A DNA stretch of 64,000 nt from Bauldia litoralis. GTDB lineage: Bacteria; Pseudomonadota; Alphaproteobacteria; Rhizobiales; Kaistiaceae. The stretch covers positions 1-64,000 of the forward strand of contig CAMCWB010000002.1 of assembly GCA_945882315.1 (NCBI GenBank), given 5' to 3'. Position numbers and translations under genes: made by a program. Below, in pieces: positions 13,092 to 17,307 of this stretch. The notes beneath the pieces were generated by a model, which was not told where the DNA came from, did no database searches, and saw only the letters and a list, made by a program, of their open reading frames with translations. Each line of letters starts with the position of its first letter. The first letter of the stretch is position 1.

Positions 13092-13892
13092 TTGGCGGAA
13101 GCTGGCGACGACCTCGAACTTCTCGTCGCCGCGGCCCGCGAGGCCGGCGCGCTCGCCATGACTTTCTTCCGCAAGGATCCGAAGACCTGGCCGAAAGGCG
13201 ACAGCTCGATCGTCAGCGAGGCCGACATCGCGCTCGACCAGCTTCTCTTCTCGCGCCTGACCGCGGCCCGCCCCGATTATGGCTGGCTGTCGGAAGAAAC
13301 CGCCGACGATCTTGCCCGCCTGTCGCGCGAGCGCGTCTTCGTGGTTGACCCGATCGACGGCACGCGCGGTTTCCTCGCCGGCGGCAACGAGTGGACGGTG
13401 TCGCTCGCCGTCGTCGAGAACGGCTACCCGGTTGCCGCAGCACTGTTTGCCCCCTCGCTCAATCTGATGTTCGAGGCGAAGGCCGGTCGCGGCGCGACGC
13501 GGAACGGGCGGCCGATGCAGGTTTCGCCGCGCCAGGAGCTGGCCGGCGCGAGCGTCGCCGGCTCCAAGCGGCTCATCCGCGACGCCCTGGAAATCGGTGG
13601 GGTGTCACTCGATTATTATGGCTTCGTCACGTCGCTCGCCTATCGCTTCGCGCTGGTTGCGGCCGGCGAGGTCGACGCTGGCATCGCGCGTGCGGGATCG
13701 CACGACTGGGACCTTGCGGCAGCCGATCTTTTGGTGCACGAAGCCAAGGGGCGGCTTGCCGATCTTGCCGGCAACCGGCCGCGCTACAATGAGCGCGAGC
13801 CGCGCCATCCGACGCTTCTCGCCACCAATTCGGCGCTGGGCGATGCGATGGCCGAGCTTGTCGAGAAAGCCGACAAGGCGCAGGCGAAATAG
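13092..13892 (+). CDS. cysQ: Inositol monophosphatase-family phosphatase (CysQ-like 3'(2'),5'-bisphosphate nucleotidase)
   Basis: A 266-residue Mg2+-dependent, Li+-sensitive-type phosphatase. The metal site is built from LSEET (about residue 65) and DPIDGTRGFLAG (about 81), with the second-metal Asp in SHDWDLAAADLLV. The GTRGF variant favours the CysQ/BPNT branch that hydrolyses PAP or PAPS over true inositol monophosphatases, but assignment by motif is not decisive. Start is a TTG two bases after pmbA's stop. In this lineage it heads the Kdo/lipid A cluster. Confidence 0.88.
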   Translation: MAEAGDDLELLVAAAREAGALAMTFFRKDPKTWPKGDSSIVSEADIALDQLLFSRLTAARPDYGWLSEETADDLARLSRERVFVVDPIDGTRGFLAGGNEWTVSLAVVENGYPVAAALFAPSLNLMFEAKAGRGATRNGRPMQVSPRQELAGASVAGSKRLIRDALEIGGVSLDYYGFVTSLAYRFALVAAGEVDAGIARAGSHDWDLAAADLLVHEAKGRLADLAGNRPRYNEREPRHPTLLATNSALGDAMAELVEKADKAQAK

Positions 13893-13941
13893 GGGGACGA
13901 CGCCGACTATCGAGGTTTCCAGCTTTTCATGAGGAGCCGAA

Positions 13942-14178
13942 ATGGAAAAGCGCAATGCCCCTGAACAGTTGCTCCACCTCGTCTTCGGAGGGTAGCTTGA
14001 AAGCGTCGACGATATGAAATTCACCGATCTGTCCGCTGTCGATATCGTCGGCATTTTCCCCAATTACCGCACCGCCTATGACGCGTGGAAATCCAAGGCG
14101 CAGGCAACCGTGGACAATGCCGGCACGCGCTATTTCATCGTCCATCTCCACCGCCTCCTGGAGCCTGACGCATCGTGA
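13942..14178 (+). pseudogene. DUF4170 protein gene interrupted by an in-frame amber codon
   Basis: A clear GAGGAG ribosome binding site precedes the ATG at 13942. The frame encodes a 17-residue N-terminal piece ending QLLHLVFGG, then TAG (13993-13995), and continues in frame for 60 codons with DIVGIFPNYRTAYDAWKSKA and TRYFIVHLHRLLEPD before TGA. Together these make one typical 78-residue DUF4170 protein, a small family of unknown function attached to the Kdo/lipid A cluster in alphaproteobacteria. Family members have Glu at the interrupted position, so GAG to TAG is a one-base change. An internal ATG at 14014 could allow restart of the larger piece. A sequencing error is possible. Confidence 0.8.
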
Positions 14179-14185
14179 GAAGCCG

Positions 14186-14983
14186 ATGACGGTAGGGGAC
14201 GTGGATGCCAAGCCCGAGGCAGAGCCGAAGCCTGGGTCGAAGCGGGGCTCGCCGCGCACGAGGCGGCGGCGCCGGCTCGCCCATCTCGGCGACCGGCTCA
14301 TCCGTTCGCCACGGACGCAGTCGACCGTCGCCGGTCTGGTCGCCAACTATCTGCGCTTCGTGAATGCCACGAGCCGGCTGACCTTCGATCCGAGCGATCC
14401 GTACGTCATGCAGGCCTCGCTCGCCCCGGTGATCTTCACCATGTGGCACGGCCAGCATTTCATGCTGCCTTTCGCCCGCCAGTACGAGCTCGACGTTCGC
14501 GTACTCATCTCCCGCCACCATGACGGCGAGATCAATGCGCTGGTCGCCGAGAAGCTCGGCGTCGGTACGATCCGCGGTTCCGGCGGCCGCTCGCGCAAGC
14601 GCATGGTCGAAAAGGGCGGCCTGGTCGGCTTCATGGAGATGAAGACGGCGCTCGAGGAGGGCGCCTTCGTCTGCATGACCGCGGATATCTCCAACCTCGA
14701 ATCGCGCCGGGCAGGGCTGGGCGTCGTGTCGCTTGCCAAGGCGAGCGGCCGGCCGATCGTGCCGATCGCCTACGCATCGAGCCGGCGCATCGACATCACG
14801 AGCTGGGACCGCGCCACCCTGAACCTGCCCTTCAGCCGCGCCGTCTGCGCCGTCGGCGAGATCGTCGAGGTGCCCGAGGATGCCGGCGACGCGCTCCTCG
14901 AAGCCAAGCGCCAGGATGTTGAGACGGCGCTGAACGAAGCAACCGCCCGCGCTTACGCGCTTGTCGACCGGCGCGCGGTCTGA
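14186..14983 (+). CDS. Lysophospholipid acyltransferase-like protein (DUF374)
   Basis: 265 residues of the LPLAT/DUF374 branch of acyltransferases. The family signatures are TMWHGQHFMLPF (residues about 90-101), SRHHDGEIN and RGSGGRSRKRMVEKGG, followed by ADISNLESRRAGLGVV. Members sit beside waaA and lpxK in alphaproteobacteria, suggesting a role in lipid A or envelope lipid acylation, but no activity is proven for this group. The N-terminal 35 residues are basic and variable. The ATG at 14186 lies 8 bases after the DUF4170 gene. Confidence 0.88.
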   Translation: MTVGDVDAKPEAEPKPGSKRGSPRTRRRRRLAHLGDRLIRSPRTQSTVAGLVANYLRFVNATSRLTFDPSDPYVMQASLAPVIFTMWHGQHFMLPFARQYELDVRVLISRHHDGEINALVAEKLGVGTIRGSGGRSRKRMVEKGGLVGFMEMKTALEEGAFVCMTADISNLESRRAGLGVVSLAKASGRPIVPIAYASSRRIDITSWDRATLNLPFSRAVCAVGEIVEVPEDAGDALLEAKRQDVETALNEATARAYALVDRRAV

Positions 14984-14986
14984 GCG

Positions 14987-16276
14987 ATGGCGGATCGTCT
15001 CGGCAACGCCGTCCTCGCAGCCTATCGGCTGGTCGGACGCGCCGTCACGCCGATCCTGCCGCTCGCCCTGTCGCGGCGCGCGGCGCGCGGCAAGGAAGAT
15101 CCGGGCCGCATCTCCGAGCGCTACGGCACGGCTTCGATCGAGCGGCCCGCCGGGCGCCTCGTCTGGGTCCATGCGGCGAGCGTCGGCGAGACCAACGCGG
15201 TGCTGCCGCTGATCCGCCGGCTCGTCGAGGCGGGCCTTGCCGTGGTCTTCACCTCGGTGACCGTGACGTCGGCCGGCATCGCCGCCACACGTTTGCCGGC
15301 GGGCGCCCATCACCAGTTCGCGCCGATCGACGTGCCTTCCGCCATCGGCCGCTTCATCGAGCACTGGCGTCCCGAAATGGCGCTCTTCGTCGAATCCGAG
15401 CTCTGGCCGACGACGCTGTCCACCTTGCAGAATCGCGGCATTCCGCTGGTCCTCGTAAATGCCCGGCTGTCCGAGCGTTCCTTCCGCGGCTGGCAGCGCT
15501 TCGGCAGCGTTGCCCATGCGCTGGTCGGCCGCCTGGCGCTTTGCCTCGCGCAGAGCCCGCAGGATGCCGAACGTTATCGGGCGCTCGGCGCTCGCGACGT
15601 CCGCATCACCGGCAATCTCAAATTCGATGTGCCGGCCCCCGAGGTCGATCCGGCGGCGCTGGCGGCTTTCGAGCGCACGACCGACAACCGGCCGATCTGG
15701 GTGGCGGCGAGCACGCATCCGGGCGAGGAAAGCATCGCCGCGGGGGTTCACCGGACGCTCGCATCGCGGATCCCCGGCCTTCTGACCGTGATCGTGCCGC
15801 GCCATCCCGAGCGCGGCGCCGCCATCAGGAGTGAGATCGTCGCCGGCGGCCTTTCGGTCGCGCAGCGCAGCCTCGGTGAGCTGCTCCTGCCCGTGACCGA
15901 CGTCTATCTCGCCGATACGCTGGGCGAACTCGGCCTGTTCTATCGCGCCGCGCCGGTCGCCTTCCTCGGCGGCTCGATGGTCGAGCATGGCGGCCAGAAT
16001 CCGATCGAGCCGCTCCGTCTCTCCTGCACCGTGCTGCATGGCCCGCATGTCCATAATTTCTCGGACATCTACGCCGCGATCGACGCCGTCGTTCCGCAGG
16101 CCTTTGCGGCCGACGCCGGCGACCTTGCCGAACGCGTCGCGGAATTACTGGGCGACCGCGAAGCGGCGCGACGCCAGGCGGAAGCGCTGGCCGACGCATT
16201 GAAGCCACTTTCCGGCGCGTTGAATGAAACGATGACGGCGCTCGACCCCTTTATCCGCAAGGCGCAGCGCGCATGA
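14987..16276 (+). CDS. waaA: 3-deoxy-D-manno-octulosonic acid (Kdo) transferase
   Basis: A GT30 glycosyltransferase of 429 residues that adds Kdo to lipid IVA on the inner leaflet of the cytoplasmic membrane. Motifs: WVHAASVGETNA (about residue 59, with the catalytic Glu), FVESELWPTTL, VLVNARLSERSFRGW, GNLKFD, WVAASTHPGEE and FLGGSMVEHGGQNPIEP. A short hydrophobic N-terminal segment anchors it. It follows the DUF374 gene by 3 bases and overlaps lpxK by ATGA, so the cluster is one operon. Confidence 0.97.
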   Translation: MADRLGNAVLAAYRLVGRAVTPILPLALSRRAARGKEDPGRISERYGTASIERPAGRLVWVHAASVGETNAVLPLIRRLVEAGLAVVFTSVTVTSAGIAATRLPAGAHHQFAPIDVPSAIGRFIEHWRPEMALFVESELWPTTLSTLQNRGIPLVLVNARLSERSFRGWQRFGSVAHALVGRLALCLAQSPQDAERYRALGARDVRITGNLKFDVPAPEVDPAALAAFERTTDNRPIWVAASTHPGEESIAAGVHRTLASRIPGLLTVIVPRHPERGAAIRSEIVAGGLSVAQRSLGELLLPVTDVYLADTLGELGLFYRAAPVAFLGGSMVEHGGQNPIEPLRLSCTVLHGPHVHNFSDIYAAIDAVVPQAFAADAGDLAERVAELLGDREAARRQAEALADALKPLSGALNETMTALDPFIRKAQRA

Positions 16277-17307
16277 GGAAGCCGCCGAGCTTCTGGCGCG
16301 ACGAGAAGCCCAGCCCGGCGGCCTTCCTCCTGATGCCGGCAGGCGCCGTCTATGGCTGGGTTGCCGGCTGGCGGATGAACCGGCCGCCTTTGGCGCGCGC
16401 CGCGGTGCCGACCATCTGCGTCGGCAATTTCGTCTTGGGCGGCGCCGGCAAGACGCCGACCGCGCTGGCGCTGGCGCGGATCGCCCGGGCTCGCGGCCTG
16501 CGCCCCGGCTTTCTGACGCGTGGCTATGGCGGCGAGGAAAAGGGGCCGCTGCTCGTCGACCTCGCCACGCATCGTGCCGATCGCGTCGGCGACGAAGCGC
16601 TGCTGCTCGCGGCGGTCGCCCCGACCGTCGTCGCCGAGGCGCGCCCGGCCGGCGCCAGTCGCCTGCTCGACGAGGATATCGACCTCATCATCATGGATGA
16701 CGGCTTCCAGAATCCGTCGCTCGCCAAGGATCTCTCCTTCATCGCCGTCGATGCCGGGGCGGGGATCGGCAATGGGCTGGTCTTCCCGGCCGGGCCGCTC
16801 CGCGCGCCGCTCCGCACGCAGATCCAGCACACCGATGCGCTGGTCGTCATCGGCGAGGGCGATGCCGCCGACCCGGTCATCCGCGTCGCGGCCCGTGCCG
16901 GCCGGGCCATCCTGCGCGGCCGCCTGCGGCCGGCGCGCATCAAGGACTGGCGGAAGACGCCGATCCTCGCTTTCGCCGGGATCGGACGGCCCGAAAAATT
17001 CTTCGCCTCGCTCGCCGAGATCGAGGCGCCGGTCGCTAAGACCGTCGCCTTCCCGGATCACCATCGCTTCACCGAGGACGATGCCGAGAATCTCCTGTTG
17101 ACCGCCGAAGCCGGCAAGCTCCGCCTCGTCACCACGGAGAAGGATCTGGCGCGCCTGGCGGGTGCCGAAGGCGCTGCCGGCCGTCTTCGCGACAAGGCCG
17201 ACGCCTTCGCGGTCACGCTCGAATTCGAGAATCTCGTCGCGGTGAACGAGATGATCGCCGATGTCTCGCGCGCCATGCAGGCGCGGGAACCGGTGGTGAG
17301 CCGCTAA
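16273..17307 (+). CDS. lpxK: Tetraacyldisaccharide 4'-kinase
   Basis: Phosphorylates the 4' position of the lipid A disaccharide at the inner membrane. The 344-residue protein has the membrane-associated N-terminus GAVYGWVAGWRMNRP, the P-loop VLGGAGKTPTALAL (about residues 53-67), RGYGGEEKGP, and IIMDDGFQNPSLAKDL. Its TAA stop overlaps the TAG stop of the convergent DUF2093 gene within the plus-strand tetramer CTAA. Confidence 0.97.
   Translation: MRKPPSFWRDEKPSPAAFLLMPAGAVYGWVAGWRMNRPPLARAAVPTICVGNFVLGGAGKTPTALALARIARARGLRPGFLTRGYGGEEKGPLLVDLATHRADRVGDEALLLAAVAPTVVAEARPAGASRLLDEDIDLIIMDDGFQNPSLAKDLSFIAVDAGAGIGNGLVFPAGPLRAPLRTQIQHTDALVVIGEGDAADPVIRVAARAGRAILRGRLRPARIKDWRKTPILAFAGIGRPEKFFASLAEIEAPVAKTVAFPDHHRFTEDDAENLLLTAEAGKLRLVTTEKDLARLAGAEGAAGRLRDKADAFAVTLEFENLVAVNEMIADVSRAMQAREPVVSR

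Follow-up and report, generated by a model that had tools for sequence, protein, structure and literature searches.

The closest described counterpart of the locus reported here is the solved DUF4170 member of Caulobacter crescentus (2MHE / NP_419126.1), which is alike in profile, fold and gene neighbourhood; the copy in the window (the whole 64,000-nucleotide stretch of DNA analysed here) differs in that it is interrupted after residue 17. A second comparison is provided by ordinary bacterial pseudogenes with one nonsense mutation, which have a single stop, are found in a single genome, affect non-core genes and occur several per genome. The DUF4170 copy is similar in all these respects, but is as yet without decay behind the stop, and may be an artefact. 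Lastly, Belinky et al. (2021; PMC7918605) argued that prokaryotes frequently read through in-frame stops, a case built on stops common to orthologues of two or more species. The DUF4170 stop likewise lies inside a conserved coding frame, but it is common to no relative. A literature search on DUF4170 itself found nothing relevant.

The interrupted DUF4170 frame and its neighbourhood

The frame at 13942–14178 on the + strand comprises 17 codons, a TAG at 13993–13995 (codon 18), 60 further codons and a TGA, and reads MEKRNAPEQLLHLVFGG, stop, LESVDDMKFTDLSAVDIVGIFPNYRTAYDAWKSKAQATVDNAGTRYFIVHLHRLLEPDAS, stop. With X in place of the internal stop, it matches the DUF4170 profile (PF13773) with 75.5 bits over profile positions 2–60 of 60, well above 25 bits, the curated cut-off that defines membership; the piece from ATG 14014 alone scores 59.3 bits. 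Sequence and profile therefore agree with the preliminary description, in which a DUF4170 frame with a ribosome binding site was broken by a TAG and continued for 60 codons. The source genome is a draft of 3.98 Mb in 162 contigs, with a completeness of 100%, and the genome-wide search found no second DUF4170 copy above cut-off or noise; a compensating second copy was therefore rejected. No Rfam element was found at the locus. In an alignment of 25 DUF4170 members, the interrupted copy retains every invariant column, so neither decay nor relaxed constraint is visible behind the stop, which is expected with a recent mutation or an error.

The family alignment profile matches 2MHE with an E-value of 2e-32. 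A structural model of the read-through protein also matches it (Foldseek E-value 5.6e-6, 56% identity), although this model is of modest quality, with a mean pLDDT of 71 and an alignment of only two sequences. It possesses a strand at residues 12–18, a second at 33–39, a helix at 42–56 and a third strand at 62–68, and the stop corresponds to the final residue of the first strand.

The flanking genes (Table 1) are uninterrupted in sequence, with Pfam matches of 59.5–278.1 bits, consistent with the intact Kdo/lipid A operon that had been described. The context in relatives is similar: DUF4170 is flanked by a CysQ-like gene and, in many cases, by DUF374 and waaA behind it. Termination at the TAG would leave a 180-base untranslated stretch, with the DUF374 start 8 bases past the end of the DUF4170 frame, and translation of DUF374 could therefore be lowered. 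ARAGORN reports a tRNA-Thr(CGT) at window positions 14202–14291 on the - strand, antisense within the DUF374 gene; this call is most likely spurious, since a good tRNA-Thr(CGT) is found elsewhere and there is no Rfam match at this position.

Conservation of DUF4170 in relatives

I surveyed DUF4170 in 101 genomes, consisting of the source genome and 100 relatives. A match above cut-off is present in 92 of these, and only one, that of the source genome, contains a stop; none was found in the other 91. The disabling mutation is thus absent from the relatives. At the position of the stop, 46 sequences from relatives have GAG (26), GAA (14), GAC (2), CGG (2), GCG (1) or CGC (1). As the homologous codon is GAG in 26 and GAA in 14 of the 46, a single substitution is enough to produce the TAG, and the one-base explanation proposed initially holds. 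None of the relatives examined is shortened to the internal ATG 14014, where a Met or start codon is only sporadic among them, and the comparison with relatives suggested in the preliminary description therefore identified neither a shared stop nor a shared internal start. A waaA-based search of genome contigs for close relatives retrieved one, Xanthobacter tagetidis, with 50% identity and an intact DUF4170.

Seven genomes without a DUF4170 match still retain waaA, indicating that loss of DUF4170 is tolerated in nature. Among them are the complete genomes G056 and G098, which belong to one genus, and the reduced genomes G030 and G080. DUF4170 is therefore dispensable, at least in other backgrounds. 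Several relatives possess a second, weaker DUF4170 paralogue (about 52–61 bits), among them G002, G004, G008, G009, G011, G012, G014, G017, G018, G019, G021 and G025; the source genome has none.

Other interrupted genes in the same genome

The DUF4170 stop had been treated as a single event. A sample of 1.26 Mb of the same genome, including the window (stretches L107–L146 and L167–L186), was scanned with a trained codon model for in-frame stops that are preceded and followed by coding signal. Ordinary gene ends were removed by eye, which is a weakness of the scan. This identified at least 15 further conserved genes that are each cut by a single stop (12 TAG, two TGA and one TAA; Table 1), and the DUF4170 stop is thus one of many. 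Stops close to gene ends escape the scan, as the one in DUF4170 did, and the count is therefore a minimum. Counting DUF4170, the stop is spanned by a single Pfam domain of the type expected in 13 of the 16 genes, and none of the 16 is obviously essential. At least one clear frameshift is also present, in UPF0047/YjbQ (L118:19703), where two complementary Pfam pieces cover profile positions 1–77 and 84–117. It is the only one confirmed, the output of the frameshift scan being mostly noise from gene boundaries and stretch ends; two candidates, in genes for an O-antigen ligase (L111) and for a cyclase (L116), are unproven.

Table 1. Features of the DUF4170 locus (window positions) and stop codons interrupting other genes of the sample (stretch:position).
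Feature	Position	Strand	Basis or remark
Inositol-monophosphatase-family gene (CysQ-like), intact, own stop TAG	13092–13892	+	PF00459, 139 bits
Ribosome binding site, AGGAG type, ahead of ATG 13942	13930–13934	+	sequence inspection
DUF4170 (PF13773) frame, interrupted, sole genome copy	13942–14178	+	profile, single copy, 25-member alignment
GGAGGG directly ahead of TAG, candidate Shine-Dalgarno-like motif, 22 nt before ATG 14014	13987–13992	+	sequence
In-frame TAG, codon 18, mostly Glu in relatives	13993–13995	+	sequence; codons of 46 relatives' sequences
54-codon frame from internal ATG, product would be without the first beta strand	14014–14178	+	PF13773, 59.3 bits; model
DUF374 gene, intact	14186–14983	+	PF04028, 59.5 bits
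waaA/kdtA (Kdo transferase), intact	14987–16276	+	PF04413, 206.8 bits
lpxK (lipid A 4'-kinase), intact	16273–17307	+	PF02606, 278.1 bits
PhoX, TAG	L120:2456	-	scan
ABC ATPase, TAG	L119:4679	-	stop spanned only by a secondary AAA_21 match
cNMP-binding, TAG	L113:5086	-	scan
CNNM, TAG	L114:10307	+	scan
NMT1 binding protein, TAG	L143:9616	-	scan
Aminotransferase, TAG	L139:9606	-	scan
Amidohydrolase, TAG	L140:14477	-	scan
APH_6-like kinase, TAG	L146:6732	-	scan
Amino-acid binding protein, TAG	L179:18649	-	scan
TctC, TAG	L168:14802	+	scan
XylF-like binding protein, TAG	L181:17930	+	scan
TerB-like protein, TAG	L177:10255	+	scan; uninterrupted in 39 relatives
TerC, TGA	L124:10620	+	scan
GNAT/CelD-like protein, TGA	L186:4624	+	stop 11 residues ahead of domain, within alignment to homologues
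TctA, TAA	L108:1102	+	scan

As a control, the same scan was applied to six relatives, covering about 0.78 Mb and about 678 genes, and yielded one possible case. Interrupted genes thus amount to 15 of 1089 in the sample of the source genome, versus 1 of 678 in the six relatives (Fisher p = 0.008). Either this genome has unusually many single disabling mutations, or its draft has a quality problem. The single control case, in relative G006 (L148:15133), is a possible TAG-cut ATPase-like gene, perhaps part of a mobile element, and has no Pfam match.

Two further oddities were observed in the tRNA complement. Contig C28 of the source genome G000 (L116, L135; tRNAs L082, L097) harbours a second copy each of tRNA-Ala(CGC) and tRNA-Tyr(GTA), and the G+C content falls to 58.5% in the second half of the contig, versus about 65% elsewhere; the contig is either a genomic island or foreign. 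In addition, a poorly pairing tRNA-like gene (L098, G000:C102:144-319), which scores 35.5 bits, has an anticodon loop containing GGU and is not called by ARAGORN, is either a degenerate tRNA-Thr or a foreign remnant.

Origin and consequence of the stop

The explanation I favour, with a probability of roughly 0.55, is a recent loss-of-function amber substitution that truncates the single-copy DUF4170 after 17 residues and makes it effectively null in this strain. An ordinary nonsense substitution would have produced the TAG at codon 18, the protein would end there and the gene would be without effective function; the stop would then be one of several dozen isolated disabling mutations (an extrapolated figure) across the non-core genes. 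I infer that the organism truly carries this base and makes no useful DUF4170 product. Because at least 15 other genes are cut likewise, the stop looks like ordinary recent breakage, or a sequence error, and not like special decoding. Of the four readings offered initially, recent loss and sequence error fit best, and read-through and re-initiation less well. The main rival is accordingly a sequence artefact, in which DUF4170 and the other isolated stops reflect consensus errors of the draft assembly or a damaged template. The assembly is fragmented into its 162 contigs, and the many single stops lacking decay, together with their excess over the six relatives, fit consensus errors equally well. 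The clearly inferable stop-creating changes are all G:C to A:T, which is the usual direction of bacterial mutation, but also the outcome of template or DNA damage. If the errors were random, however, the number of stops would require an error rate of about 6e-4 per base, which is high for a genome of such completeness, and a search of rpoC, ribosomal-protein and ATP-synthase loci found no stop. Private substitutions are not in excess either, at 7.8 per 1000 versus 4.3–18.3 in the others over 2578 core-gene columns, a comparison of low power in which errors would add only two or three events. An artefact is a serious contender, if on balance the less likely one.

The two remaining readings would preserve a DUF4170 product, and both appear improbable. 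In one, ribosomes would terminate at 13993 and resume translation at ATG 14014, producing a working 54-residue protein. The arrangement around 13987–14014 is suggestive of termination-reinitiation, albeit recognized post hoc: the GGAGGG preceding the TAG encodes a Gly-Gly pair in a rare form (seen in 5 of the 2625 such pairs of the sampled genes), the in-frame ATG lies 19 bases past the stop, and a TTG mini-frame from 13997 closes with a TGA overlapping this ATG. Nevertheless, the motif is located beyond the usual distance from the ATG, the product would lack both the first strand of the model and the invariant LLHLVFGG block, and no family member that begins at the internal ATG was found among the relatives examined. 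Re-initiation, as raised in the preliminary description, is possible, but unsupported, and I regard it as very unlikely. Functional amber read-through, or a partial reassignment of TAG, at DUF4170 and the other sites is very unlikely. It would account for the conservation of the parts downstream of the stops, and is in line with the argument that read-through is frequent in prokaryotes (PMC7918605). TAG makes up 13 of the 16 stops (DUF4170 counted), and the homologues mostly have Glu or Gln at the TAG sites where they are clear: Glu for DUF4170, the TerB-like and the APH-like proteins, and Gln for the XylF-like protein, CNNM and the aminotransferase. The cNMP-binding site has Glu or Ser in homologues, and the sites in the amidohydrolase and the amino-acid binding protein gave no clear residue. 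Against this, PhoX has Trp, so that no single residue type is found at these sites; TGA and TAA occur as well; and a TAG-specific enrichment was rejected, the share of TAG being not significantly above the 66% expected under uniform single substitutions in the codons of this genome (p = 0.15). TAG is also not avoided as a normal terminator, ending 238 of 744 sampled genes, including the one just upstream of DUF4170. Among the 44 tRNA genes found, none has a CTA anticodon, in a search that could miss a very divergent tRNA, and the suppressor tRNA considered in the preliminary description was consequently rejected. With no cognate tRNA among these 44, TAG an ordinary terminator and no single residue at the TAG sites, amber recoding is unsupported. 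It is most improbable of all that UAG is usefully read through by a weak RF1 or near-cognate Gln/Glu decoding, in a lineage that would tolerate unusually many single amber codons in conserved genes and produce DUF4170 and a dozen other proteins at full length. Genuine stops that are read through would represent an interesting natural amber tolerance.

Returning to the favoured reading of a recent nonsense substitution, the single locus is of little weight, since the gene it disrupts is small and conserved but of unknown function; unless the draft is in error, a known small family has here a nonsense allele, in a genome with many of them. The interrupted genes of this genome call for a check of the reads before they are interpreted. 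The locus would then constitute a natural DUF4170 null allele, in an otherwise intact operon beside lipid A genes.
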